From the NCBI GenBank assembly GCA_016291495.1, contig JAEEXI010000001.1, forward strand, positions 124,001-188,000: a DNA stretch of 64,000 bases, written 5' to 3'. Positions 3,901 to 41,500 of the stretch are shown in pieces. The notes beneath the pieces were generated by a model. It was given only the letters and a program-made list of their open reading frames with translations. It was not told the DNA's origin and ran no database searches. Source of the DNA: Prevotella sp. (GTDB lineage: Bacteria > Bacteroidota > Bacteroidia > Bacteroidales > Bacteroidaceae). Position 1 is the first letter of the stretch, and the number at the start of each line of letters is the position of its first letter. Both the position numbers and the translations under genes were made by a program.

Positions 3901-4734
3901 TTAATGGGAAAGATGGGCAATCCTCTCTTCGATCTCCTTGACGGCATCGAGGCACTGCTGTTCGTTCAGCACACCATGGTGCCACTTGGCAATGCCTTCC
4001 ATGAACGAGACGCCCTTGCCCTTCGTGGTGTTCGACACCAGCAGATGCGGTTTTTTGTTCTCGTAGTCAATGGCGTCGAAGGTCTTGATGATGTCCTCCA
4101 TCGAATCGCCGTTCATCTCTATCACGTCCCAGCCGAAGGCGCTCCAGCGTTCCTTGATAGAGTCGATGGGCATCACGTCCTCCGTGTCACCGCTAATCTG
4201 CAGGTGGTTACGGTCCAGGATAGCGACGAGGTTGTCGAGTTGATACTTGTTGCCAGCCATGGCAGCCTCGTAGATAGAGCCTTCGCCCTGCTCACCGTCT
4301 CCCATCAGCACGTAAGTCTTCCATGCCTTCTTGTCCATCTTGGCTGCGATAGCCATACCGACTCCGATGCTGAGGCCGTGGCCTAAGGCTCCACTGTTGA
4401 CCTCAATACCCGGTACCTCGATAGTGGGGTGACCGCTGAGGATGGATCCATACTGACCCAGGGTGTCGAGTACTTCCGGTTTCAGGAATCCTTTTGCCTC
4501 GAGGGTCACATAGAGGGCCTCTACGCAATGTCCCTTGCTCAATACGAAACGGTCACGACCGGGAGCCTTTGGCTCCTGAGGGTCGAGGCCTTGCATGACG
4601 TGGAAATAGAGTGCCGTCATCACGTTCAGGCACGACAGGTCGCCACCAATGTGGCCTGCCTTGGCCCGATAGACGACCTCTACGAGTCGTTTACGGTTTT
4701 TCTCCGCGAGTATTGTCAGTTCTTTGGTATTCAT
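3901..4734 (-). CDS. Transketolase N-terminal (thiamine diphosphate-binding) subunit
   Basis: 277 aa: GHIGGDLSCLNVMTALYFHVM...SKGHCVEALYVTLEAKGFL...GSILSGHPTIEVPGIEVNSGALGHGLSIGVGMA...GDGEQGEGSIYEAAMAG. ATGA overlap with the upstream lyase gene. Confidence 0.9.
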   Translation of the reverse strand: MNTKELTILAEKNRKRLVEVVYRAKAGHIGGDLSCLNVMTALYFHVMQGLDPQEPKAPGRDRFVLSKGHCVEALYVTLEAKGFLKPEVLDTLGQYGSILSGHPTIEVPGIEVNSGALGHGLSIGVGMAIAAKMDKKAWKTYVLMGDGEQGEGSIYEAAMAGNKYQLDNLVAILDRNHLQISGDTEDVMPIDSIKERWSAFGWDVIEMNGDSMEDIIKTFDAIDYENKKPHLLVSNTTKGKGVSFMEGIAKWHHGVLNEQQCLDAVKEIEERIAHLSH

Positions 4735-6467
4735 AGTGCTTTTACAAGTGTGTCGTGGTTATTCTTCATGTCCGTCCAATCCACTTTTTGGTCCGTAGGA
4801 ATGGCGTTAATATACTTCTCTATATTCGTGTAACCGTCTCCGTTACAGTCTTTTATGGCATCGCTTGCGTCATTGGGATTCAGACCGTTCTTCTTCTCCC
4901 ACTCGTCGGGCATACCGTCGCCGTCGCTGTCTTTCCAGGGCTTCCATTTCCTGTACTCAGGATAGCCGCCCATCTGTCGTGGGTCGGTAATGACACCCTG
5001 CTTGTAAGAGTCCTGTGGCAGACGGCGGTACTTAAAGGTGCCCTGCTCGTTCTTCGACTTGTCGTGTAGTCCCCACATGTCGCCATAGGGATTGTCCTTC
5101 ACCTTCTTCTCATAGTCTTTCACATAGTAGGCGACGCCCGTCCTTACCTCCTCGCAGATGCGCTGGTCGACGATGTCGCGGCAGGGAATGGTGGCACCGG
5201 CATTCGACAGCACCCAGTCGAAAGCCTCCTGGGCACTCATGATTGAGATATGCGGCATGACGAACGGCTCGTTGGAGCGCATCAGCGCCTTCTCCGTGGC
5301 GTCCATCTCACCGTCCTTGTCGGCAGTTTGGATACCGCCGTTCCAGTTGTCCTTCGTAATCTCGGGATAGCCCTCCATGATATTGCCCTCGGCATAGACG
5401 CGACCGAACTGCTTGAAGGGGAAGAGTCCCTGTGAGCGGCTCTCGCTCTTGACGATGCGGTGGCCTACGGGTGTGTCTTTCGGCGTCAGGGGACCTGGCT
5501 TGTAGTAGTTGTTGATGAAGTTCGACATGGTCGTGAACTCACCACCGTCAGCCGTGCGGTGTACCCAGTTATAGACGATGTTGTTGATGTAGTTGAACAC
5601 GCCGCCCCAGCCGATGCTCGGGTTACGTCCGGTGTTGTCGGCCCAGAGGTTACGCATGAACGTGGTGTTCTCACCGCCGATGGTCGAACCGAAGGCGTGG
5701 TTCCACGTGTCGAGCGCCTTGGCGGAGATGGTGTTCTGGATGGTCACGTTGACGGTCGGCTCCTTACGGTTGGGCTTGCCGTCGTGCATATCGAACATAT
5801 GACGGTAGAACGAGATATTCTCGTCCAGTCCCCACTCACAAGAGCAGTGGTCGATCATGATGTTGCCCACGGGGTTGCCGCCGAAGGAGTCCTCACGGTT
5901 CATCACATTGGTCTCGCCGCGGCGGAAGCGCATGTGGCGCACGATGACATCGTGGGTATCGACCTGGAACGACTCACCGGCAATGATCACGCCGTCACCA
6001 GGAGCCGTCTGACCGGCTATGGTGATATAGGGAGCACGCACATAGATAGGTGACTTCAGACGGATGATACCGCTGACGTTGAACACCACGATGCGGGCGC
6101 CACCCTGTTCGCATGCCCAGCGGAACGAGCCGGGACCGTCGTCGTTCAGGTTGGTCACGGTCAGCACCTTGCCGCCACGACCACCAAAGGTGAACATACC
6201 GCCCCCTTCAGCGCCGGGGAATGCGGGAATCTTGGCCTGACGCAGGTCGTAGGGACGGGCTGCCCAGGGTACGTAGGGGCGTCCTGCCTTAGCTTCTTCA
6301 ATCACGATGGGGAAGGCCACTGCCCATGCAGAGTCGCTATGTACCTTCCACTGTGCTTTCTGTTCCCCGATCATCTGCTTGGCCTCACTGGTCAGATCGG
6401 GATACTGTGCAAATGCCGTCGTTGCCACACTCAGCAACGACACAACAATAACGATTAGTTTTTTCAT
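4731..6467 (-). CDS. Secreted pectate lyase (PL1-like) with C-terminal calcium-binding DSDGDGMPDEWE / NGDGYTNIEKYIN segment
   Basis: Signal peptide MKKLIVIVVSLLSVATTAFAQ; AFPGAEGGGMFTFGGRGGKVLTVTNLNDDGPGSFRWA..., GRGGxVxxVTNL motif, parallel beta-helix. Confidence 0.88.
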   Translation of the reverse strand: MKKLIVIVVSLLSVATTAFAQYPDLTSEAKQMIGEQKAQWKVHSDSAWAVAFPIVIEEAKAGRPYVPWAARPYDLRQAKIPAFPGAEGGGMFTFGGRGGKVLTVTNLNDDGPGSFRWACEQGGARIVVFNVSGIIRLKSPIYVRAPYITIAGQTAPGDGVIIAGESFQVDTHDVIVRHMRFRRGETNVMNREDSFGGNPVGNIMIDHCSCEWGLDENISFYRHMFDMHDGKPNRKEPTVNVTIQNTISAKALDTWNHAFGSTIGGENTTFMRNLWADNTGRNPSIGWGGVFNYINNIVYNWVHRTADGGEFTTMSNFINNYYKPGPLTPKDTPVGHRIVKSESRSQGLFPFKQFGRVYAEGNIMEGYPEITKDNWNGGIQTADKDGEMDATEKALMRSNEPFVMPHISIMSAQEAFDWVLSNAGATIPCRDIVDQRICEEVRTGVAYYVKDYEKKVKDNPYGDMWGLHDKSKNEQGTFKYRRLPQDSYKQGVITDPRQMGGYPEYRKWKPWKDSDGDGMPDEWEKKNGLNPNDASDAIKDCNGDGYTNIEKYINAIPTDQKVDWTDMKNNHDTLVKAL

Positions 6468-6476
6468 AATTAGTTT

Positions 6477-6490
6477 TTAAACGCGTTTAA
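6477..6490. promoter_or_regulatory. 14-bp perfect palindrome TTAAACGCGTTTAA just upstream of the PL1 lyase start codon
   Basis: Read directly: ttaaacgcgtttaa is its own reverse complement; it ends 10 bp from the ATG at 6467. Confidence 0.5.
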
Positions 6491-6550
6491 TATATATATT
6501 AATATGACACACTGCCCCCTATAATGTACTCATATTCCTCCCCAATTTTT

Positions 6551-6671
6551 CTCATAGCTTGCTCATAGCTTACTCATACCTTACTCATACCTTGCTCATA
6601 GGTTGCTCATAGGCATCTCATAGGCATCTCATAGGATACTCTATCCGAAGTCATAGATTTTTCATACTTCT
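6551..6671. repeat. 11-bp tandem array (11 degenerate units of ctcatagcttg type)
   Basis: Units: ctcatagcttg/ctcatagctta/ctcatacctta/ctcataccttg/ctcataggttg/ctcataggcat/ctcataggcat/ctcataggata/ctctatccgaa/gtcatagattt/ttcatacttct, each exactly 11 nt. Confidence 0.9.
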
Positions 6672-6678
6672 AGGGCAT

Positions 6679-6722
6679 GACAAATCCCTGACAAGCCCCT
6701 GACAAATCACTGAGGATTCCCT
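6679..6722. repeat. 11-bp tandem array, second sequence type (4 units, gacaaatccct)
   Basis: gacaaatccct/gacaagcccct/gacaaatcact/gaggattccct. Confidence 0.8.
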
Positions 6723-6755
6723 CTTACCTCTTACCTCTCTCCATTCACCTCTAAA
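6721..6755. repeat. Heptad array (5 x 7 bp: ctcttac ctcttac ctctctc cattcac ctctaaa)
   Basis: Strict 7-bp periodicity read from sequence. Confidence 0.75.
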
Positions 6756-6851
6756 GACTGAGCGAGTCTTACTTTTCGAAAGTCGAGTATTTTATAGAAA
6801 AATATTCCGTTAAATAATGCAAACGGGTGGGGCGGTTCCATAAAATTTGTT

Positions 6852-6859
6852 TACCTTTG
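6852..6859 (+). promoter_or_regulatory. Candidate Bacteroidetes -7 element TACCTTTG upstream of the 1199-aa gene (no clear -33 TTTG)
   Basis: TAnnTTTG consensus match; start codon at 6958. Confidence 0.4.
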
Positions 6860-6957
6860 CAAAGATTTATGGTCGCCTCTTTGTCGGAGGTGGGCAATTG
6901 CCGTAACTGGACTGTGATTTAAATAACATTATACTATTAACTAAAACAAAAAAGCGT

Positions 6958-9900
6958 ATGAAAAAGAAATTACTTTCTTTCTTGTCGTTGACTGCGATTG
7001 CTATCTTTGCTTTCGCTGCAACGCAAAGTTTACGGAGAGCAGGTGATCCTGTTGTTCTGTGGAGTAGTGAAACTCCTGTGGAAGTTACATGGGGCACCTC
7101 TGTTGCTATGCAGGATGCTTCGGTAGCAGCAGATTGGAATGTTGGTGATATTTTGGCTATTACGGTCAATTCATTCGACACTGCAACAGATCCTTGGCCA
7201 CAGGTTGGATTTAAGCAGAATATTGAAGGATGGCCCAATGTGTGTCCTCTTGATGCTTCAGTGAAAAGTCAAACGATGCCTTATGTCTCTAAGTTTTATA
7301 TTACAGCGGACATGTTGGCTAAACTGAAGGCAAACCAGTTCTTTATAAGCGGAACTGCAGCTACAGTAAGCAAATTGGAATACATTAAGGATGAGTCTGG
7401 TACAGATTTTTCCAATGCTATTTGGATTGGAGAATCCACATATCCCGCATCAGAATGGTGGACTGCAACTGCTGTTACAGTAGACAAGAGCTTATTTGCT
7501 AATGTTAAGGCAGGTGACAAGATTGAGTTCCGTCTTACTGCAAAAGGCGATGCTTTTATCCTGCAGCCATTCTTAGGAGGTTGGAGTGGAACAAAGATTA
7601 ATACTAATGACGATGCCGCCCGCTTCACTATAAATGGAAATGTTGCAACAGTAACCCTTACTGCTGACGATGCTACTGCTCTTAAGACGGGTGGTATGGT
7701 ATTGCAGGCAGGCGACTGTACTGTTAGGGCTATTGCTTTGATACCTATGTATGCTGTCAATGTTGCGACTGATATTGAGAACGGTACTGTCGAAGTTGAC
7801 AAAGCTACTGCTGCTGAGGGCGAGACCGTAACCGTCACTGCTACTCCTGCTGCTGGCTACAAGCTGTGTAATGCCCTTGCTAGAGGTGTAACCACTGAAG
7901 TGGCTGTCGAAGTTAAGAATGGCAAGTTCACTATGCCTGCTGATGCTGTTACTGTAAGCGCTACCTTCGCTCAGCCAGAGGACATCGCAATTTCTCCTGA
8001 GTCAGGTGCTGACATCTATACTGCCCTCAAGGCTGCTACCACTGATGCTGGCAAGGTTGCTAAGAGCGTTACGATTAACTTGGCCAAGAACGGTACTTAT
8101 ACTTTGAGTAATCCTATCGAAGGATGTTCAAACATTGCAATTGCTGGTCCTGCAACTTTGGCTGATGGTGAGAACGCTCCTGTGATTGATGCAGAAGCTA
8201 ATACAGGTGCTTTCGTGAAGATGGGTACACCTGTTGTTGCGGCAAATACTAAGGGTTTCTATGAGGTTGACAACTTCGCAATTAAGAATGTTAACGTCAA
8301 GAATATTAAATCTTATGTATATGATGACAATAAGAATGCTTTCGCATTTGCAGAGTTCGCAGTAGAGAACTGTGTATTTGAATTTGCAAATACGAAGCAG
8401 GATATTGATGCACCGTTCCGCTTCCAGGCAGGTGGTCCTGTCAAGTTCATTCTGAAGAACAATACTATGTATCAGAAGGGAACCAAAAATAACAGGTACT
8501 TTGTGAAGATTAGTAGTGGAAACTTCCCCGATAAGGCATTTGAAGCATTTGCTGGTCCGTATGTCTGGGATATTGAGGGCAACACGTTCTATCAGACAAT
8601 TGCACATGGTGATGGAGCCAAGATGGCATTCATTAATGGTGGTCGCGTAGGTAACAATTTCGCAAAAACATCTATTACCATAAAGAAGAATATCTTCATC
8701 GATTGTGCTGGCAGTGAGAGTTTCTTGAAGGATTTGTTCGGTGGTAAGAGCACTGATTCTGACCGTGCTAAATTTGTAAAGATTGATACTGACCTCAATA
8801 CTTATAGGACAGATGGTACAGCTATTGATGTTAGTAAGTATGATAAAGGTATGATTCTCACTACCGACCCAAGTTTCAAGGATGCAGCTAATGGTGACTT
8901 CACACTTGGTGCAACTACTGCTCAGGCAAGGATGAAGACTGGTGACCCACGCTGGTTGGTTGACTATGTAGCTCCTGCTGAAGCAAAAGTTCAGGACATT
9001 GAATTTACCGCTGAACCAGGTGATATATCTAGGCAGTTGACAGCAAAGAAGAGTGAGATAATCAATGCTCTGAATGATGTTGGTAATATCACTATCAATC
9101 TGGCAGCTGATGGTGCTTATACTATTAGTGCTCCTATCGAGGCTGGTGGTTCTGTTACTATCAATGGTGCCGCTGGTGCTAAGATTGATGCTTCTGCTCT
9201 GACTGATGCATTCATCAAGATGAGCAAGACTCCTGCTGTGGCTAAGGTGACAAGTGGACAATATGTTGTTACGACTCCAGCCAAGATTGAGAATGTCAAG
9301 ATTACAGGTCTGACAAAGTCTATCTATACAGACAATGGCATTGAATATGCATTCGAAACCTTTACAATCAACAATTGTGTATTCGAATATGAGACTCAGG
9401 CTAGTTATGTTCTTGACTTCAGTAAGTCTATGGCTATCAACTTCAATATTATCAACTCTACGTTCTATAGTAAGACTAGCGGAACAGCCAACTTCATAAG
9501 TTTGTCTGGCAAGCGTCCTTGGCAGATTACCGGCTATGAAGTGGAGACAGGTAAGTTGACAGTTGACCACAGTACTTTCTACAACTTGGCAAAGTCCAAG
9601 CAATTCTTGAATACCAATACCCTGAAGGGTCAGAAGTATCTGTATGTCATGAACTCCAATATCTTTGTTGACTGCTCGAACAAGAAGATTTACGGTAACA
9701 TGACAAACAACGCGAAGCAGGTTACTACTGATAGCAAAAATACCTACATGTTTGATGGTGTATTCTTTGCTGAAACAGGCAATAACGGTGATGCTGGTCT
9801 GCAGACAGATCCTGCCTTCAAGGATGCTGCTAATGGTGACTTTACACTTGGTGCAAGTACAGTACAGGCCAAGTATGAGACTGGTGATCCACGCTGGAAG

Positions 9901-10557
9901 GTGGCATTTACTGGCGGTTACACCATCACTATGGGAACCGTAACAAATGGTACAGTTGAAGCAGGAGGTACATCTCCTTATGCAGCAGGTGAGAAGGTTC
10001 GCCTTACTCTCACACCAGCGGAAGGATATGCAATAGATAATAAGCCTACCTTCAAGAACGACGAGGATGTAGATGTAACTGAACTGGTAACTGTCGGACA
10101 GGATGCTGATGGCTTCTATCTCGTAATGCCTGCATTCAACATCACTGCATCTTATGCGTTCAGCAAGCTGTATACGATTACTCTTCCTACTGAGACAACG
10201 CATGGCACTATTACCATCGTGAAGCCTGAGGGAACCAACAAGTCTGTTGCTGGTAAGCTGATAAAGATTAAGGTTACAGGTCTGTCTGATGGTTATAAGG
10301 TAGTTGCAAAGAATGGTGACACTGACATTACACTCAATGAGGGTGATCATGCAACGTACGACTATTACTTCGAAATGCCTGAAGGCGATGTGACAATCTC
10401 TATCGTAGATGCTACAGGCATCAATGCTATCTCAGTTGACGGTGCTGCTGACATCTTCGCTGATGGCAAGCCTGTTTACAACCTCGCAGGACAGCGTGTC
10501 TTCAAGGGTTACAAGGGTCTTGTGATCAAGAACGGCAAAAAGGTCGTGGTTAAGTAA
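6958..10557 (+). CDS. Large secreted protein with two DUF4957/DUF5123-like beta-helix repeats, InlB-like repeats and a Prevotella-type C-terminal tail
   Basis: Signal peptide MKKKLLSFLSLTAIAIFAFA; duplicated module ending TDPSFKDAANGDFTLGATTAQARMKTGDPRW / TDPAFKDAANGDFTLGASTVQAKYETGDPRW; C-terminus VYNLAGQRVFKGYKGLVIKNGKKVVVK. Confidence 0.75.
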   Translation: MKKKLLSFLSLTAIAIFAFAATQSLRRAGDPVVLWSSETPVEVTWGTSVAMQDASVAADWNVGDILAITVNSFDTATDPWPQVGFKQNIEGWPNVCPLDASVKSQTMPYVSKFYITADMLAKLKANQFFISGTAATVSKLEYIKDESGTDFSNAIWIGESTYPASEWWTATAVTVDKSLFANVKAGDKIEFRLTAKGDAFILQPFLGGWSGTKINTNDDAARFTINGNVATVTLTADDATALKTGGMVLQAGDCTVRAIALIPMYAVNVATDIENGTVEVDKATAAEGETVTVTATPAAGYKLCNALARGVTTEVAVEVKNGKFTMPADAVTVSATFAQPEDIAISPESGADIYTALKAATTDAGKVAKSVTINLAKNGTYTLSNPIEGCSNIAIAGPATLADGENAPVIDAEANTGAFVKMGTPVVAANTKGFYEVDNFAIKNVNVKNIKSYVYDDNKNAFAFAEFAVENCVFEFANTKQDIDAPFRFQAGGPVKFILKNNTMYQKGTKNNRYFVKISSGNFPDKAFEAFAGPYVWDIEGNTFYQTIAHGDGAKMAFINGGRVGNNFAKTSITIKKNIFIDCAGSESFLKDLFGGKSTDSDRAKFVKIDTDLNTYRTDGTAIDVSKYDKGMILTTDPSFKDAANGDFTLGATTAQARMKTGDPRWLVDYVAPAEAKVQDIEFTAEPGDISRQLTAKKSEIINALNDVGNITINLAADGAYTISAPIEAGGSVTINGAAGAKIDASALTDAFIKMSKTPAVAKVTSGQYVVTTPAKIENVKITGLTKSIYTDNGIEYAFETFTINNCVFEYETQASYVLDFSKSMAINFNIINSTFYSKTSGTANFISLSGKRPWQITGYEVETGKLTVDHSTFYNLAKSKQFLNTNTLKGQKYLYVMNSNIFVDCSNKKIYGNMTNNAKQVTTDSKNTYMFDGVFFAETGNNGDAGLQTDPAFKDAANGDFTLGASTVQAKYETGDPRWKVAFTGGYTITMGTVTNGTVEAGGTSPYAAGEKVRLTLTPAEGYAIDNKPTFKNDEDVDVTELVTVGQDADGFYLVMPAFNITASYAFSKLYTITLPTETTHGTITIVKPEGTNKSVAGKLIKIKVTGLSDGYKVVAKNGDTDITLNEGDHATYDYYFEMPEGDVTISIVDATGINAISVDGAADIFADGKPVYNLAGQRVFKGYKGLVIKNGKKVVVK
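7981..9905 (+). repeat. Internal coding duplication: module A about 7981-8970, module B about 8995-9905
   Basis: Similar N-ends (DIAISPESGADIYTALKAA...VTINLAKNGTYTLSNPIEG vs DIEFTAEPGDISRQLTAKKS...ITINLAADGAYTISAPIEA) and near-identical C-ends. Confidence 0.85.
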
Positions 10558-10718: not shown

Positions 10719-13700
10719 ATGTACAAACGAAAACTGCTATTTTTTGTATGGGCATGGTGTCTGACGCTTTCTGTGGGGGCGAAGGATATCTATGTGTCGA
10801 CATCTTTCCATGAGCCTGCCACAGAGGGCTTGCGCTTCATATACAGCTACGACGGGGTGAAGTGGGACTCCATACAGGGTGTGTTCCTGCGTCCGTCGGT
10901 AGGCGTACAGAAGGTGATGCGTGACCCGAGTATCGTGAAGGGGCCTGACGGCACGTTCCATCTGGTATGGACCAGTTCGTGGCGGGGCGACCGTGGCTTT
11001 GGCTATGCGTCGTCGAAGGACTTGATCCATTGGACCACGCAGCGGTTTATCTCCACCGGGATGGATACCACGACGGTGAATACCTGGGCACCGGAACTGT
11101 TCTATGATGACGTGAAGAAGCAGTACCTGATTGTCTGGGCATCGTGTGTGCCGGGGAAGTTCCCTGACTATCAGGAAGACCATAAGAACAATCACCGCCT
11201 GTATTATATGACGACGAAGGACTTCAAGACGTTCTCGAAGGCGCAGTTGTTCTACGACCCAGGCTTCTCTGCCATTGATGCCACGCTGATCAAGCGGGGA
11301 ACGGACGACTATGTGATGGTGGTGAAGGACAACTCGCGTCCTATGCGCAATATCAAGGTAGCGTTTGCCAAGTCGCCCTACGGTCCGTGGAGCCAGGCAT
11401 CGGAGCCTTTCACGGAGTCGTTCACGGAAGGACCGTCGACGGCAAAGGTGGGCGACTGGTGGTATATCTACTACGACTCCTATCGCCATAAGATATACGG
11501 TGCCCATCGTACCAAGGACTTCAAGACGTTCCAAAACCAGACTGGGGCAGTCAACTTTCCCGTAGGTCATAAGCACGGAACGGTATTCATGGCAGATGAG
11601 CAACTGGTGGAAGGACTCATCAAGTATAACCGTGATGTGGTACACTACAGCGGCAAGGCCATTGCCCGGCCTGAGCGGCATGACGGTGGACTGAAACCGG
11701 TGGTGGGTGTGCATACCATCCAGACGATGCGTGGCGCAAAGCCCTGGACCTATAACCACCAGCCGATGATGGCCTACTGGAACGGCAAGTTCTATATGCA
11801 CTACCTGACAGACCCTCGCCATGAGCATGAGGCACCGGGCAAGACGATGCTGCAGACCTCGGACGACGGTTATACGTGGAGTGAGCCCGTGGAGCTGTTT
11901 CCGGAATATAACGTGCCGGAGGGATGGACGAAGGCTAGCAGGGACTTTCCGCCTGCCCATAACCTGAAGGCAGTGATGCACCAAAGGGTGGGGTGGTACC
12001 TATATAGAGGTGAGAGGTTAGAGGTAAGAGGTGAGAAGAGGTCAGAGGTAAGAGGTGAGAGACTGCTTGCTACTGGCAACTACGGCATCTGCCTGAGCAT
12101 CAAGGACGACCCGAACGACGGTAACGGTATTGGCAGGGTGGTGCGTGAGATCAGGAAAGACGGCACCTTCGGTCCTATCTACTTCATCTACTATAACCAC
12201 GGTTTCAGTGAGAAGAATACCGACTTCCCTTATTATAAGAAATCGAAGGATAAGGCTTTCGTGGCTGCCGTTGATGCGATGATTGCCGACCCCATGCAGC
12301 GGATGCAGTGGGTGGAGGAGGCTGATCGTAACGACCCTATCATCCCATTGAACAAGCCCTATAAGGCATTCAGTGGCTATACGCTGCCAGACGGCAGGAA
12401 GGTGGCGCTGTGGAAACATGCCGTCACGAGCCTGTCGGCTGACGGTGGTCATACGTGGCGGTTGGAGGGTGCTCCCAATGCCCTCAAGTGTGAGCGTGCC
12501 CCTGGTTTCGTCAATTCGAATGCGAAGATATGGGGACAGCGTCTGTCGGACGGTACCTATGCCACTGTCTATAATCCGTCGGAATATCGTTGGCCTCTTG
12601 CCATCTCCCTCAGTCAGGACGGACTGGACTATACGACGCTCAGTCTTGTCAATGGCGAGGTGACGCCCCTTCGTCATGGCGGTCAGTATAAGAGCTACGG
12701 TCCCCAGTATGTCCGGGGCATCGAGAATAGTGACAACTCTCAACTCTCAACTTTCAACTCTCAACTTCCCAAAGACCTTTGGGTCACTTATTCCAATAAT
12801 AAGGAGGATATGTGGGTGAGTCGTATTCCCGTGCCGGTACGGATGGAGGCAACCACGCATGCGGCACCCTTCCACGAAGGGGCTAAGTTGTCGGAACTGA
12901 CTGACTGGAACATTTACTCCCCACAATGGGCTCCCGTTGCCCTTCAGGGAGCGTGGCTGCAACTGAGCGACTGTGATCCCTACGACTATGCGAAGGTGGA
13001 GCGCCTGATTCCCAATACCAAGGAACTGGAAGTGGAGTTTGACCTGAAGATGGCCCAGAATACCTATGGGGAGTTGGATATCGACTTCGTGGACGATGCA
13101 GGGAATGTGTGTTCCCGTATTGTCGTGGACTCTACGGGTGTTATCCGTGTGAAGGGCGGTGCCAGATACGGAACCTTGCTCAAGCATTATGAACCTGGTA
13201 CGACCTATCATGTCAAGGCGGTACTTTCTGTTTCGCTGCATCGGGCCGTCTATTACCTGAACGGCAAGAAAGCCTGCGAGCGACAGTTTGACACGCCTGT
13301 GGAGAGCATCAGTCGTATCGTATTCCGTACGGGAATGCCTTTCGACAAGCCCGATATCAACACACCTGCCGATCAGGACTTCGATATGCCGCGTGCTGAC
13401 GAGAGTGACCAGGAGGCTTCCTTCGCCATTGCGAATGTTGTTTCCCGTGCTGTAGACGGCAGCGTTACTGCTGTCCTCGACTATGACGACTATGCCCACT
13501 ATGCCGACTATTTCAATACGATGGAAGACGAGAATATCGTCACGACCATCCCTAATGCGCAATCGTCGGAATGGATGCGAGAGAATATCCCGCTGTTCGA
13601 CTGTCCGCAGGAGAACTTCAAGGAGATGTACTACTATCGCTGGTGGACGTTGCGCAAGCATATCAAACGGACTCCTGCAGGCTATGGCATGACGGAGTTC

Positions 13701-14936
13701 CTGGTGCAGCGTTCGTATGCCGACCGCTATAACCTGATTGCCTGTGCCATCGGCCATCATGTGATGGAGAGCCGTTGGCTGAGGGATACCACCTATCTGC
13801 ATCAGATACTGCGGACATGGTATTATGGCAATGACGGACAGGCGATGACGAAGATGAACAAGTTCTCGTCGTGGAACCCTGCCGCCGTGCTGGAGATGTG
13901 GAAGGTGCAGGGTGACAATGATTTCCTACTCGGTCTGAAACCCCGACTGGAAGAGGAGTATGCCCGTTGGGAGCGTACCAACCGTCTGGCGAGCGGACTC
14001 TACTGGCAGGGTGATGTTCAGGACGGTATGGAGGAGAGTATCAGTGGTGGACGCAAGAAGCAATATGCGCGTCCTACCATCAACAGTTATATGTTCGGCA
14101 ATGCCAAGGCCCTTGCCGTTATGAACCATATGACGGGAGAGACAGCCAAGGCGGCGGACTACGAGTTGAAGGCGGATACGTTACGGCAACTGGTGGAGAC
14201 GAAACTATGGAATAAGGATCACCAGTTCTTCGAGACGTTGCGGGGCGATACCTCTGCTGCCGTCCGTGAGGCAATTGGTTATATCCCTTGGTATTTCAAC
14301 CTGCCGTCGTCCTCCCAGTATGATGTGGCCTGGGAGCAGCTGACAGACGAAAAGGGCTTCTCGGCTCCCTACGGTCTGACGACCGCCGAGCGCCGTCATC
14401 CGCAGTTCCGCAGTCATGGAGTGGGGAAGTGTGAGTGGGACGGTGCCATCTGGCCCTTTGCTACCTCGCAGACGCTGACGGCGCTGGGGAATTATTTGAA
14501 TGGGGTTCATGGGTCTAATGGGGTTCATGGGCTTGATGGGGTGTTCTTCAGGCAGATGGAACTTTATGTGGAGTCGCAGCATCACCGTGGACGGCCCTAT
14601 ATCGGGGAGTATCTCGACGAGACGAACGGGGCGTGGCTGATGGGTGACCGTGAGCGTAGCCGTTATTATAACCATTCGACGTTCAACGATCTGATGATTA
14701 CAGGAATCGTGGGACTGCGTCCTCAAGAGGACGGCAGTATTGTGGTGAATCCCCTCGTGCCGCAGAACCAATGGAACTACTTCTGTCTGGACGGTGTAAA
14801 CTATCGTGGTCATATACTGACCATCCTCTGGGACAAGGACGGACAACGCTATCATCAGGGTGTCGGACTGACCTTGATGGTGGATGGGAAAGTGGTGGCT
14901 AATCGTCAAGACATAGGAAAACTGACATACAAATGA
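10719..14936 (+). CDS. Three-module RG-II enzyme: GH43-like + GH143-like beta-propeller + GH142-like (alpha/alpha)6 domain (BT1020-like with an extra N-terminal GH43)
   Basis: 1405 aa. N-term DIYVSTSFHEPATEGLRFIYSYDGVKWDSI...RDPSIVKGPDGTFHLVWTSSW; middle VHYSGKAIARPERHDGGLKPVVGVHTIQ...MMAYWNGKFYMHYLTDPRHEHEAPGKTMLQTSDDGYTWSEP; C-term six-hairpin SWNPAAVLEMWKVQGDND...GKCEWDGAIWPFATSQTL. Confidence 0.65.
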   Translation: MYKRKLLFFVWAWCLTLSVGAKDIYVSTSFHEPATEGLRFIYSYDGVKWDSIQGVFLRPSVGVQKVMRDPSIVKGPDGTFHLVWTSSWRGDRGFGYASSKDLIHWTTQRFISTGMDTTTVNTWAPELFYDDVKKQYLIVWASCVPGKFPDYQEDHKNNHRLYYMTTKDFKTFSKAQLFYDPGFSAIDATLIKRGTDDYVMVVKDNSRPMRNIKVAFAKSPYGPWSQASEPFTESFTEGPSTAKVGDWWYIYYDSYRHKIYGAHRTKDFKTFQNQTGAVNFPVGHKHGTVFMADEQLVEGLIKYNRDVVHYSGKAIARPERHDGGLKPVVGVHTIQTMRGAKPWTYNHQPMMAYWNGKFYMHYLTDPRHEHEAPGKTMLQTSDDGYTWSEPVELFPEYNVPEGWTKASRDFPPAHNLKAVMHQRVGWYLYRGERLEVRGEKRSEVRGERLLATGNYGICLSIKDDPNDGNGIGRVVREIRKDGTFGPIYFIYYNHGFSEKNTDFPYYKKSKDKAFVAAVDAMIADPMQRMQWVEEADRNDPIIPLNKPYKAFSGYTLPDGRKVALWKHAVTSLSADGGHTWRLEGAPNALKCERAPGFVNSNAKIWGQRLSDGTYATVYNPSEYRWPLAISLSQDGLDYTTLSLVNGEVTPLRHGGQYKSYGPQYVRGIENSDNSQLSTFNSQLPKDLWVTYSNNKEDMWVSRIPVPVRMEATTHAAPFHEGAKLSELTDWNIYSPQWAPVALQGAWLQLSDCDPYDYAKVERLIPNTKELEVEFDLKMAQNTYGELDIDFVDDAGNVCSRIVVDSTGVIRVKGGARYGTLLKHYEPGTTYHVKAVLSVSLHRAVYYLNGKKACERQFDTPVESISRIVFRTGMPFDKPDINTPADQDFDMPRADESDQEASFAIANVVSRAVDGSVTAVLDYDDYAHYADYFNTMEDENIVTTIPNAQSSEWMRENIPLFDCPQENFKEMYYYRWWTLRKHIKRTPAGYGMTEFLVQRSYADRYNLIACAIGHHVMESRWLRDTTYLHQILRTWYYGNDGQAMTKMNKFSSWNPAAVLEMWKVQGDNDFLLGLKPRLEEEYARWERTNRLASGLYWQGDVQDGMEESISGGRKKQYARPTINSYMFGNAKALAVMNHMTGETAKAADYELKADTLRQLVETKLWNKDHQFFETLRGDTSAAVREAIGYIPWYFNLPSSSQYDVAWEQLTDEKGFSAPYGLTTAERRHPQFRSHGVGKCEWDGAIWPFATSQTLTALGNYLNGVHGSNGVHGLDGVFFRQMELYVESQHHRGRPYIGEYLDETNGAWLMGDRERSRYYNHSTFNDLMITGIVGLRPQEDGSIVVNPLVPQNQWNYFCLDGVNYRGHILTILWDKDGQRYHQGVGLTLMVDGKVVANRQDIGKLTYK
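12006..12060. repeat. Intragenic heptad array (agaggtg)n with a 3-nt interruption
   Basis: agaggtg agaggtt agaggta agaggtg aga agaggtc agaggta agaggtg; encodes RGERLEVRGEKRSEVRGERL. Confidence 0.9.
12733..12767. repeat. Intragenic heptad array (tcaactc)5
   Basis: acaactc tcaactc tcaactt tcaactc tcaactt; encodes NSQLSTFNSQL. Confidence 0.9.
14500..14544. repeat. Intragenic 9-bp array (atggggttc)5
   Basis: atggggttc atgggtcta atggggttc atgggcttg atggggtgt; encodes NGVHGSNGVHGLDGV. Confidence 0.85.
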
Positions 14937-16261
14937 GAAAGCTATTCATGACAGCCGTGATGCTCCTGGCATTGGGAGCTACGGCGCAGACTTACGAGAC
15001 GCAGTATCGTCGACCGGTGAGTGACGTGATGCAGGATGTGGCAAAGCGTTTCGGCGTGAAATTCAAGTTTGATGCGAATGTCGATACGGCAGGTGTCGTC
15101 TTGCCTTATGCCGACTTCCGTATCCGTCCGTATTCATTGGAGAAAACGCTCGACAATATCTGTAAGTATTTTGACTGGAACTGGTGGAAGCAACACGAGA
15201 CGTTGTATAAGATTAAGCGGTATGAGTATCCCCGTCGTCATGAGGATGAAGGACGGCAAATGCTCGACTATCTTTCCACGCTGTATAGCAATAAGGCGGA
15301 GTGGGAGGCACGGCGAGACAGTCTGCGTCGTGAGGTCCGCCAGCGTCTGGAGCTGGATGCCTTCCTCGATTCCTGTGTGTTGGGAAAACCTTTGCTCTCC
15401 AAGATTCGTAAGCACGATGGTTATACCACCCAGAATATCTGTATCGAACTGACTCCCGGGCAGCATCTGTTTGGCACCATCTATGCGCCTGTCAAGAAGA
15501 AGCGCAAAAGTAATCTCTCACCTCTCACCTCTCACCTCTCACCTCTCATTATCTGTCCGGACGGTCACTGGCCCATGCGTTATCGCAAAGACGAGCAGCA
15601 ACGGTTAGGTACTTTGGCACGGATGGGTGCCGTCTGTGTGGATTTCGATCTATATGGCTGGGGAGAGTCGGAAAAGGAAGTGGGTGCTGAGGCACACCAT
15701 ACCAGTCGTGCGCATGTCTATCAGGCAGCCTGCGGCTATATCCTGCTTGACTGGATGTTGAAAAACCGCAAGGACATTGACCCTGAAAGAGTGGGGGTGA
15801 TGGGTGGCTCTGGTGGTGGAACTCATACCGTTCTGTTGTCGTTGTTGGATGAGCGCGTCACAGCTTCGGCCCCTGTGGTTCATCTAGCCTCGCACTTTGA
15901 TGGTGGTTGTCCTTGTGAGAGTGGTAAACCCATACAACTCTCGGCAGGTGGTACCTGTGAACCGGAATTGGCTGCCGTAATGGCTCCCAAACCGATGTTG
16001 ATAGTCAGCGACGGTGGCGACTGGACCTCATCTGTTCCTACCTTGGAGTTCCCATACCTGCAACGTATCTATGGCTTCTATGGCGCCAAGGAGCAGGTGC
16101 GTAATGTCCATCTGCCCAATGAGCGTCATGACTTTGGGAAGAATAAGCGGAATGCGGTCTATGACTTCTTTATCGATGTCTTCCACCTCGACCGCTCCAT
16201 GCTTGATGAGGATAAAGTGACGATAGAGCCCGATCATGAACTAAAATCATTATACAAGTAA
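14933..16261 (+). CDS. Secreted alpha/beta-hydrolase esterase (CE19-like, BT1017-type pectin methylesterase candidate) with STN-like N-terminal domain
   Basis: Signal peptide; YRRPVSDVMQDVAKRFGVKFKF (STN-like); nucleophile elbow GVMGGSGGGTHT; ERHDFG. Confidence 0.6.
   Translation: MRKLFMTAVMLLALGATAQTYETQYRRPVSDVMQDVAKRFGVKFKFDANVDTAGVVLPYADFRIRPYSLEKTLDNICKYFDWNWWKQHETLYKIKRYEYPRRHEDEGRQMLDYLSTLYSNKAEWEARRDSLRREVRQRLELDAFLDSCVLGKPLLSKIRKHDGYTTQNICIELTPGQHLFGTIYAPVKKKRKSNLSPLTSHLSPLIICPDGHWPMRYRKDEQQRLGTLARMGAVCVDFDLYGWGESEKEVGAEAHHTSRAHVYQAACGYILLDWMLKNRKDIDPERVGVMGGSGGGTHTVLLSLLDERVTASAPVVHLASHFDGGCPCESGKPIQLSAGGTCEPELAAVMAPKPMLIVSDGGDWTSSVPTLEFPYLQRIYGFYGAKEQVRNVHLPNERHDFGKNKRNAVYDFFIDVFHLDRSMLDEDKVTIEPDHELKSLYK
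15514..15548. repeat. Intragenic heptad array (cctctca)5, the most regular in the window
   Basis: tctctca cctctca cctctca cctctca cctctca; encodes NLSPLTSHLSPL. Confidence 0.92.
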
Positions 16262-20139: not shown

Positions 20140-20202
20140 AATAACCCAGCCTTATTTGAAAATAACCCTGCCTTATTGTTGAATAACCCAGCCTTATTTA
20201 GA
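20140..20202. repeat. 21-bp tandem repeat x3 between GH140 stop and next start codon
   Basis: aataacccagccttatttgaa / aataaccctgccttattgttg / aataacccagccttatttaga; ends 6 bp before ATG 20209. Confidence 0.92.
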
Positions 20203-20208
20203 AATACA

Positions 20209-38506: not shown

Positions 38507-41500
38507 TCATTGTTCTATTTTAAGTTCTGGTTGTTCGAGTAGTCCAGCAGGCAATAAACTATCGCCCTTGGTGCGATACTTGGCATTAGTCCATATTCCC
38601 TCGTAGGGAGCCTTGCCTTGGTCTGCGCCTCTTAAGGCATTATGCCACGTGTTCACCACCTCGATTTCTATCGTATTTTTACCTTTTTGTAAGGCACCTG
38701 TTATCTCCACCTCATAGGGAGCCGTCCAGGCAATACCGCAATCTTTTCCGTTAATCCAGACGTGGGCGATATCTTTCACGTTGGGGAATGATAGCCAAGC
38801 ACGTCTCTGAGGCACCTGGTCCTTCTTCAGCTTCCACGTCGTCGTATAGCGGACGTGACCGCTGAAGTATCGAATTTGGTCATCTTTATGCTGGCTCCAG
38901 TCGAAGAGCTGCTGGGTCTTGATGGTCAAGCCTGCCTCTCGGAAGAAGAGAGTCCAAGGCTCGCTATTTATTCCCAGCGTGGGAATGTTTTTTTCCCAGC
39001 GTGGGAATATTTTATTCCCAGCGTGGGAATATTCGCTCTGTCGGTAGCTCACAAACAGCGAGCCGTAAGCAGGCAATGTGATGGTCCCTTGATAGTCGTA
39101 CGATTCGTCCGTTAGGGGATTATAAACCACCGCTTTCCCGTTGTTCTGTCGGAAGACAGGTTTGAAGGTTTGTTCCTTGTCCGTCTGATTAGAGAGGAAG
39201 TAGATATCTTGTTCTTCACCAGTACGATGAGTATAGGCAATACCCTCAGGCAGTACAACATCAGGAACAATCTTGTCGAAAGAACTTTCCTTGTAGGGTT
39301 TATCGATGACGAACACTCCTTGTTGGCGCAGTTCCTCAATACGAGCTCTTGTTTCTGGGGAAACGCTGACCCATGTAGGGATGACAAGCACCTTATAGTT
39401 GAAGGGCTGATGGAGTAGGGCATCCTTATTCATCGAATCGTACTGATAGCCGTGCAGTGGATTGATCCAGTCTTTTAGGTCGAGGATTCCAGCTGAATGA
39501 CGCACGCCGACAGGCGATTCTTCCATAGGCTGTCCGATATTGGCCAGGCGTGCTTGTTCAGATGCGACACGCTCCGCACCAAACAAACCTGGTAACATGG
39601 GAACGAGACGGTCTGGTGTCAAAGCACGACAGGGTATCTCTTCACCCGTATATACGGCAATGTCCGCTACAGGCTTACCCTTCTGCAGGAGCGTCTGACA
39701 ACGGGTGATATATTCGACGAATGGTTTTGCTTCAGCAAACCACGTCTGGTCACGTTGGAAGAAGAGTCCAATACCGTCGAGTGTCATGCCCGGTTTTTTG
39801 TCGAGCCAAGGATTGTGGGTGTTCACGTGGAAGAAGAGACGGTTCATGCCCAAGGCGAAGTTACGGTCGAGGAGGGGCTTGATCATGGCAGGTGTCTCGT
39901 CCCACACGCCACGCACCTCTGTGAACCCCTCAGCCTGAACAATTTGTTTGCCATAGATATGGGCACCATGAATGGCATCCAACATGTCGGTAGGCTTGTC
40001 GTGGGTAGGAGAATTCAACCAGTATTCACCCATCGGCACGTCCACATATTTATAATGTTCCATGCCATCGCTGACCATCGTGGGGGCAACACTCTCCGAT
40101 GATAACTGTACACCATATTCCTTGGCTTTCTGTGCCACTGTCGTGAAGAACACTTCGTTCACCAGTTCATTGATAGTTGTGCGGATATCTCGTAGAATCT
40201 TCTCGCCATCCTTCATAGGCATTCCGGCATAGACAGGTAAGTAGGGGATAATGTCATAACCGCGACGACTCTCAAACTCCTTAGCAAAATTCTTGCTCCA
40301 GTTCTGGGATCCACACTCCCACGAGTCGACGTGCAGGTATTGGATGGCCTTGTGGTTGGGACGGTTCATAAAGAGACCGAACCAGTTGTTCACTTGTTTC
40401 TCTACTGCTTTTTGCGAAAACTTGTCGCACTCCAACCCCTTGGCACCACCAGCTGTGGCGTTGGTATGTCCGGTAGAGGTGTGTCCCATTCGCAGGATGC
40501 GCCACATACCTTTGGGCAAGTCTATTTCAACGAGGTCGCCAACCAATTCTCCACGAATCAAATCAGAAGGACGTAGGAAGTCATTGACAGACAAATCTTC
40601 TTTAGGAGTATTAGGAGTGATGCGCCACACATAACCAGCCTTACCCTCCCAATTGTCGATGAGGGGCCAACTGCCTAACTTGATGTTCTTCAGTCTGAGG
40701 ACGGGTTTCCACTTGGCAGCATCCAAATCCTCGGCACCAGGCTCTGTACCCTTTGGTGTCCACTCGAAACGGAAATACTTGGCGCGGGTAGGAGGAATAC
40801 TAAATGTTGTTTTGAAACCTGTGTTCTGCCAACCCTGACGGGGAGGGGTGAGTTGTTTGACATCATAGAAGACAATGCCGTCATCAGAGGCTCTCACCTT
40901 CAATCGCTGACACTGGATATTCGTGCCAGACGGCTCTATCTCAATGTTTCGTACCAATGTGGGCGAATCGAATTCGTATTGTATCCAACAAGGGGCATCA
41001 GCACAATAGACACCCTTTGCATTCACGGTTACTTCAGGGGAATAGGTGAGTCTCTCACCTCTCACCTCTAACCTCTCACCTCTGATAGGAATGGCATAAA
41101 CAGCAATGTCTTCGTAATAATTTTCGTAGTGTTGAGGCTTGGACATACGGAAATGGCGGAAGCCTTCACTCATGATGGTATCGCAGAAGACAATCTTCTG
41201 CATGGATTCCTCGGGTTTGATCCAAGGACCGCCAGCCAAGGCAAAACCGTCACAGATGTGTATACCCATTCCTAAACCAAGAGAATCAGCTTGTGCGAGA
41301 GCCAAGTCTACCATTTTCCAGAAGTTATCACTCAGTGCATCTGCCGTACCTTGGTATTCAGGACGTTCTACCGCCCCACGAATAGGCATCAGGTAACAAC
41401 CTCCCAGACCTACATCCTTCATAGCCTGCAGGTCGGCTTTGATGCCTTGCTCGGATACTGCACCATACATCCAGTACCAGAACGTCCAAGGCTTCGTAGT

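Follow-up and report, generated by a model that had tools for sequence, protein, structure and literature searches.

Tandem arrays in a divergent intergenic spacer of Prevotella sp.: a probable mosaic of two dispersed repeats

Three short tandem arrays stand one behind the other between two divergently oriented genes in a 64,000-nucleotide stretch of a Prevotella sp. genome (GenBank assembly GCA_016291495.1, contig JAEEXI010000001.1, positions 124,001 to 188,000; hereafter the window). Their position raises the question of whether they act as a control switch for the adjoining sugar-digesting operon or belong to something of wider distribution in the genome. An earlier note on this DNA had offered three readings: a cooperative protein-binding platform, a segment of bent DNA, or a product of the same repeat-generating process. 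In our view the region 6551-6787 is likely to combine two dispersed intergenic repeats into a mosaic, placed between divergent promoters that existed before it, and its 11-mer part is likely to be lineage-specific and of a BOX- or BrickBuilt-like kind. The arrays probably represent spacer repeats and not a switch that controls the operon.

The arrays and their flanks

The three adjoining arrays were confirmed to the base by direct reading of their units (Table 1), and both 11-nt arrays were detected by TRF (min_score 40). The pattern CTCATA-N5-CTCATA occurs seven times in the window against 0.02 expected, and none of 100 shuffles reached seven. The lag-11 segment score is 53.6, and in resampled sequence no segment exceeded 18 at any period from 4 to 30 (shuffling and resampling were first-order throughout). 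The first array had been described as exact, which is nearly so for the CTCATA box and the 11-nt spacing and does not hold for the 5-nt linkers, which vary. The second 11-nt array, thought to be unrelated to the first, is an arm of inverted sense: the reverse complement of AAATCCCTGAC is GTCAGGGATTT, which agrees at 9 of 11 positions with the unit GTCATAGATTT. B-DNA has about 10.5 bp per turn, and the idea that an 11-nt period places all units on the same side of the helix is only roughly right, with a phase drift of about half a turn across the 11 units. Bending through phased A-tracts found no support, as there is a single A/T run of at least four (6658-6662) within 6551-6721.

Table 1. Features of the divergent spacer (window coordinates)
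Feature	Position	Strand	Sequence	Basis or remark
Palindrome	6479..6489	(.)	AAACGCGTTTA	Flank, outside the element; just upstream of left gene start
Left conserved block	6523..6533	(.)	AATGTACTCAT	Flank, outside the element; last conserved block on left
Left 11-mer array, 11 x 11 nt in phase	6551-6671	(+)	Units 1-4: CTCATAGCTTG, CTCATAGCTTA, CTCATACCTTA, CTCATACCTTG; units 5-8: CTCATAGGTTG, CTCATAGGCAT, CTCATAGGCAT, CTCATAGGATA; units 9-11: CTCTATCCGAA, GTCATAGATTT, TTCATACTTCT	8 good units and 3 degenerate, in-phase units (9-11)
Eight-unit part of left array	6551..6638	(+)	CTCATAnnnnn	TRF, pattern count, unit reading; matches in about 16 other genome places
Core	6634..6646	(+)	GGATACTCTATCC	Small inverted repeat; best conserved part across copies
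Inner left arm, 3 degenerate 11-mers	6639..6671	(+)	CTCTATCCGAA, GTCATAGATTT, TTCATACTTCT	Unit reading
Central imperfect palindrome	6650..6692	(+)	GTCATAGATTTTTCATACTTCTAGGGCATGACAAATCCCTGAC	Read from the sequence; inverted-arm test marginal in window copy
Segment between left array and right arm	6672-6677		AGGGCA	
Right arm, 4 x 11 nt	6678..6721	(+)	TGACAAATCCC, TGACAAGCCCC, TGACAAATCAC, TGAGGATTCCC	Inverted in sense to left arm; type 2 right part; TRF, arm test, unit reading
Heptads, 5 x 7 nt	6721..6755	(+)	CTCTTAC, CTCTTAC, CTCTCTC, CATTCAC, CTCTAAA	Begins second dispersed repeat family
Hairpin-bearing module	6749..6787	(+)	CTCTAAAGACTGAGCGAGTCTTACTTTTCGAAAGTCGAG	After heptads also in 5 other genome places and several congeneric species
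Right conserved block	6805..6819	(+)	TTCCGTTAAATAATG	Flank, outside the element; similarity to relative G220 resumes here on right
-7-like motif of rightward promoter	6852..6859	(+)	TACCTTTG	Outside the element

To the left of the arrays, the gene at 4731-6467 matched no Pfam family (E up to 0.0001). The gene to the right (6958-10557) carries DUF5123, DUF4957 and Flg_new_2 (Pfam), and the next one rightward (10719-14936) has BT_1020-like domains. The earlier note had given the operon the label PL1/apiose. Elsewhere in the window we observed tandem 22-nt palindromic TTTATTCCCAGCGTGGGAATAT and 21-nt AATAACCCAGCCTTATTTAGA units (38967-39033 and 20140-20206); TTCCCA...TGGGAA units also occur in the related genomes G035 and G167.

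Copies of the 11-mer element and their inverted arms

Positions 6470-6960 were compared by BLAST with their own genome, an assembly of 2.88 Mb in 28 contigs. Among the 40 matches, about 16 further places match the 11-mer stretch, at up to 97% identity, and others fall on the heptad stretch. Genome-wide, CTCATA-N5-CTCATA has 90 matches, spread over many contigs and nearly all in multi-unit arrays, against three for a reversed control pattern. The element thus counted has about 17 copies of roughly 100-240 bp, as found by DNA or pattern searches, which diverged copies would escape; 16, including that of the window, are well preserved, and the weak match L028 was left out of the full copies as too degenerate.

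All well-preserved copies have four parts in common: a left array, the core CTCATAGGATA-CTCTATCC, then a palindrome at the centre and finally a right part. Within the element, the number of tandem units in the left array varies from 4 to 10 among the 16 copies. The right part is of three types: 11-nt units ending TATGAG or TGTGAG in type 1 (L010, L011, L012, L013, L015, L020, L023, L025), TATGAC/TGAC-type units in type 2 (window, L014, L018, L019), and a repeat-free tail in type 3 (L009, L016, L017, L021). In five type 1 copies (L011, at 2901-2921 and neighbouring bases, L012, L015, L020 and L025) the right part is trailed immediately by four consecutive 21-nt palindromic units of the GTTTACGCACCGTAAACTTAT type; in several copies these are followed by a shared CTTTTCTAGTTACAA, and such units also occur alone at L159 12704-12785. 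Outward from the core, the linkers read GGATA (15 of the 16 copies), GGCAT (14 of 16), GGCAT or GGTTG, then CCTTG and others. This polar order is common to nearly all copies, and the copying of a pre-built element from a common ancestor explains it best.

All 16 copies are intergenic according to a simple ORF caller, which over-calls (at L015 a doubtful 215-codon ORF overlaps the array). The neighbouring genes are divergent, tandem or convergent, the orientation of the element is not fixed, and the genes beside the copies, as far as annotated, are unrelated, among them rpoC, cmk, radA, and those for methylenetetrahydrofolate reductase (MTHFR), a sensor kinase, a rhamnogalacturonidase and a ROK kinase. 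Inside 15 of the 16 elements there is no match to TAnnTTTG, the Bacteroidetes -7 consensus; such motifs occur outside them, mostly pointing away. Next to several copies, in the flanks of L010, L011 and L014, the same promoter-like module (about GATTTGCAATTATCAGAAATAATCTTTATCTTTGC) recurs. The copies share no left terminus: similarity between most of them stops at the last array unit, at a varying distance from the core. Neither terminal inverted repeats nor a mobilising enzyme was found for the element copies, and the breakpoints at two empty orthologous sites are too diverged for a target-site duplication to be called. An exact search for the core among viral contigs gave no match that would point to carriage by phage.

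The last of the three original readings, in which the arrays come from the same repeat-generating process, agrees best with the data, both kinds of array being dispersed families in this genome. We infer that an element with a fixed order of units would have been duplicated to give the dispersed copies, and that whole units would have been gained or lost afterwards by slippage or recombination. The copies may persist since spacers between transcription units tolerate them, with no dedicated role at this operon.

This neutral account is challenged in part by the units themselves. Over 113 units the CTCATA box is nearly invariant (1.7-2.0 bits per site) and the linker variable (0.4-1.1 bits), and the spacing between boxes in the 16 copies is exactly 11 nt in 91 of 92 cases. 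Common descent explains the conserved box and the exact spacing only in part, since plain drift after slippage would not obviously yield them. The contrast between box and linker, the constant spacing and the placement of copies in spacers outside promoters would also suit a genome-wide platform for a sequence-specific DNA-binding protein, with one box per turn, as for ParR on centromere iterons, and with a role in nucleoid organisation or in boundary formation and insulation. We regard such a platform as unlikely, because the element is absent from the closest sampled relatives, common descent accounts for the near-core identity and also preserves spacing, and an 11-nt period drifts out of B-DNA phase over many units.

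The inverted arm was found to be a frequent part of the element. In 12 of the 16 copies the complementarity of the right arm to the left array has a score reached by at most 1 of 100 shuffles, with the arm always downstream; in the window copy the relation is degenerate, and 7 of 100 shuffles reach its score. In the sample of this genome, an inverted partner accompanies 5 of 12 arrays of the 11/22-nt kind but 1 of 55 made of heptads (Fisher p = 0.0004), a count that is not fully independent, the five being the arms of three loci (L148, L150, L158). The window element may have a distant relative in L148 (CTCAAGGAATC, with CTCATAGGATG-like units). L150 (TGTCCAGTAGA type) and L158 (ATTGGAGATGT type) show no sequence relationship to it, and so three unrelated 11-nt sequences share one inverted design in this genome.

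A wider collection gave four in-phase boxes in 55 stretches, 27 of which come from records labelled Bacteroidetes, many of these being rumen Prevotella-type MAGs; their linkers differ. A downstream inverted arm (at most 1 of 100 shuffles) accompanies 6 of the 27, two of the three from one unlabelled MAG (L040, L081) and 1 of the 25 others. Two records of Helicobacter suis hold 4 and 8 units of CTCATAGATTA (L042 1994-2032, L063 5476-5558), upstream of a similar start codon, possibly a variable-number array in an unrelated phylum.

If the element acted in single-stranded form, as RNA or ssDNA, its two arms could fold into a long, imperfect hairpin, and they would then be accounted for by a role in the element's own copying or in transcription termination within spacers. 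Besides the frequency of the arm in this genome and in the wider collection, and its preference for 11/22-nt over heptad arrays, this agrees with exchanges that appear by eye in both arms at once, CTCATA/TATGAG in type 1 standing against GTCATA/TATGAC in type 2 (C-to-G and G-to-C); moreover, 11 bp is one turn of an A-form helix. We nevertheless find it decidedly unlikely. Folding energies are mostly ordinary against first-order resampling (z from +0.1 to -3.7; -0.3 and -0.1 for the window), window positions 6300-7000 match no model of Rfam 15 (E up to 1), and many copies sit upstream of promoters that face outward, a position in which transcription would not be expected.

Relatives, orthologous spacers and the heptad family

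In a sample of 150 genomes from the genus, taken out of a larger group, CTCATA three times in phase was found in the genome of the window only, and the same is true of matches to the element consensus. Orthologues of the left gene occur in 11 of 14 close relatives (one assembly per species), with 86-96% identity. In G220, the closest sampled relative, with a flanking protein 96% identical, the promoter-side sequences are kept and there is no array: the distance from AATGTACTCAT to TTCCGTTAAATAATG is 32 nt, against 271 nt in the window, about 240 bp shorter. The orthologous spacer of G234 is also short and array-free. Other 22-nt arrays occupy the same spacer in G167 (GGTGCCGCCTTCCTACCCGTTA type) and G035 (palindromic TTCCCACGGTGGGAAT type). 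Absence from close relatives, one part of what the earlier note had named as refuting its proposal, was found in two of these genomes, and the other two carry arrays of a different kind. Behind rpoC, 10 relatives have no such array; G167 is one of them, and there both flanks are recognisable. The orthologous comparison covers these two sites, the window spacer and rpoC; cmk, where synteny is poor, was left out. A gain of the element in its own lineage would be a simpler explanation than repeated loss, because its sequence and its position are both lineage-specific.

The flanks behave differently from the arrays. Within the palindrome at 6479-6489, AAACGCGTTT is retained in all six aligned species (the last base is G in G149), as is TGTACTCAT within the block at 6523-6533. 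Judged from this alignment, an operator or promoter is better sought in AAACGCGTTTA and AATGTACTCAT than in the array, since each keeps all bases but one while the spacer from there to the rightward promoter has been exchanged. It is highly improbable that the array serves the divergent operon as a dedicated platform for cis-regulation. Its place between divergent genes, with a promoter-like motif to the right and conserved blocks to the left, would suit such a role, but the orthologous spacers of G220 and G234 have no array and those of G167 and G035 have different ones, AAACGCGTTT and TGTACTCAT being kept in all six species, and about 16 other copies lie at unrelated genes. The cooperative binding platform for the operon proposed earlier is unsupported on the same grounds. 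An operon-specific operator array was likewise rejected as a candidate, since the array is not conserved at the orthologous operon.

Relatives also differ in the kinds of array that they hold, as judged from samples of about 400 kb per genome (464 kb for the genome of the window). Strong periodic segments (score of at least 18) have mostly periods of 7, 14 and 21 and of 11 and 22 in the genome of the window, where some period-21 segments are ordinary coding repeats; the strong periods are 7, 9, 14 and 22 in G167 and 7 and 9 in G220, and G016 has hardly any. A division of periodic segments into coding and intergenic ones is unreliable here, as the simple ORF caller calls too many frames. Instead of 11-nt arrays, G167 (L215, L228) and G220 (L246, L247) have arrays of 9-nt units whose box, CTCNGAG or CTCTAGA, is palindromic.

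The heptads and the module behind them (6721-6787) are a separate repeat family, wider in the genus than the 11-mer element. CTCTTACCTCTTACCTCTCTCCATTCACCTCTAAAGACTGAGCGAGTCTTACTTTTCGAAAGTCGAG was found in similar form at five other places in the genome. A search of the genus with a 60-nt consensus matched 66 of 300 genomes (E up to 0.001), most of them across the heptads only; nearly full-length matches to heptads and hairpin module were found in G257, G205 and G035, among others. In one G035 copy both hairpin arms differ by eye (GTATG...CATGC versus GCAAG...CTTGC), which suggests that they pair. The heptad sequences of the genome are diverse, including CTCTTAC, AATTGAN, TCTTCAC, GATGGCT and others. 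Heptad arrays (AGAGGTG, CTCTCAC) were also seen inside long ORFs by simple calling, at window positions 12006-12061, 15515-15548, 41052-41083 and others.

Together, the conserved box and spacing and the three unrelated families with inverted arms are signs that box, spacing or structure may be constrained. A broader idea, which we put forward tentatively and think rather unlikely, is that Bacteroidales intergenic repeat families of unrelated sequence converge on a box, an 11/22-nt pitch, an inverted arm and fast turnover between species. If this were true, pitch and inverted geometry would be selected and not sequence, and the selecting agent would be the copying machinery or a structure-sensing nucleoid or RNA factor yet undescribed. 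Read as a dispersed repeat, the apparently operon-specific array becomes one member of a family whose sites, about 17 in number, lend themselves to counting, dating and experiment. It is risky to call a phased array in front of polysaccharide-utilisation genes an operator without checking relatives.

Comparison with known repeat systems

In the open-licence literature on such arrays in Prevotella or Bacteroidetes we found no paper on the window element, and comparison was made with systems described elsewhere. The ParR/parC centromere of plasmid R1 consists of 11-bp direct iterons in tandem at a single locus next to parMR; the window element shares the 11-bp tandem direct repeats and differs in having about 17 scattered copies instead of one plasmid locus. 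The REP/RAYT system was considered and set aside: the genome has one PF01797 (Y1_Tnp) match (C22, L297), and neither repeat family was seen beside it. This only Y1_Tnp match, at L297 820-1614, is RAYT-like in sequence and has one short flank, at the contig start.

For the heptads, the STRR of cyanobacteria are heptamer tandem repeats. Repeats of TAACTGA are known from Beggiatoaceae and some Bacteroidetes, and the Bacteroidetes cases are missing at matching sites in relatives (PMC4679880). The array at 6721-6755 resembles both as a short, intergenic, lineage-specific 7-nt array; it differs in that the heptads of this genome have many sequences, not TAACTGA, and that in the window copy they lead into a conserved hairpin module. 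For the 11-mer element, BOX of Streptococcus pneumoniae is a dispersed intergenic repeat of modular A-B(n)-C design with variable internal units and hairpin potential. By this description the modular design is alike, and the phylum, unit length and sequence are different.

BrickBuilt is a MITE-like element with 19 intergenic copies in one genome of Porphyromonas gingivalis (PMC4596501). It comprises a tandem array of variable unit number with non-array flanks, is confined to P. gingivalis and P. gulae, and has varying neighbours (PMC4596501). Its unit is of 23 nt, its leader and tail have IS5-like terminal inverted repeats, some copies show target duplications, and bidirectional promoter activity has been described (PMC4596501). 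Compared by description, the window element differs in its 11-nt unit and in lacking a shared left terminus and an internal promoter motif. We do not file it as a MITE, because IS5-like ends were not found. BrickBuilt is nevertheless the nearest described case: both belong to the Bacteroidales, are dispersed in many intergenic copies (19 versus about 17), combine an array with flanks, and have a narrow host range.
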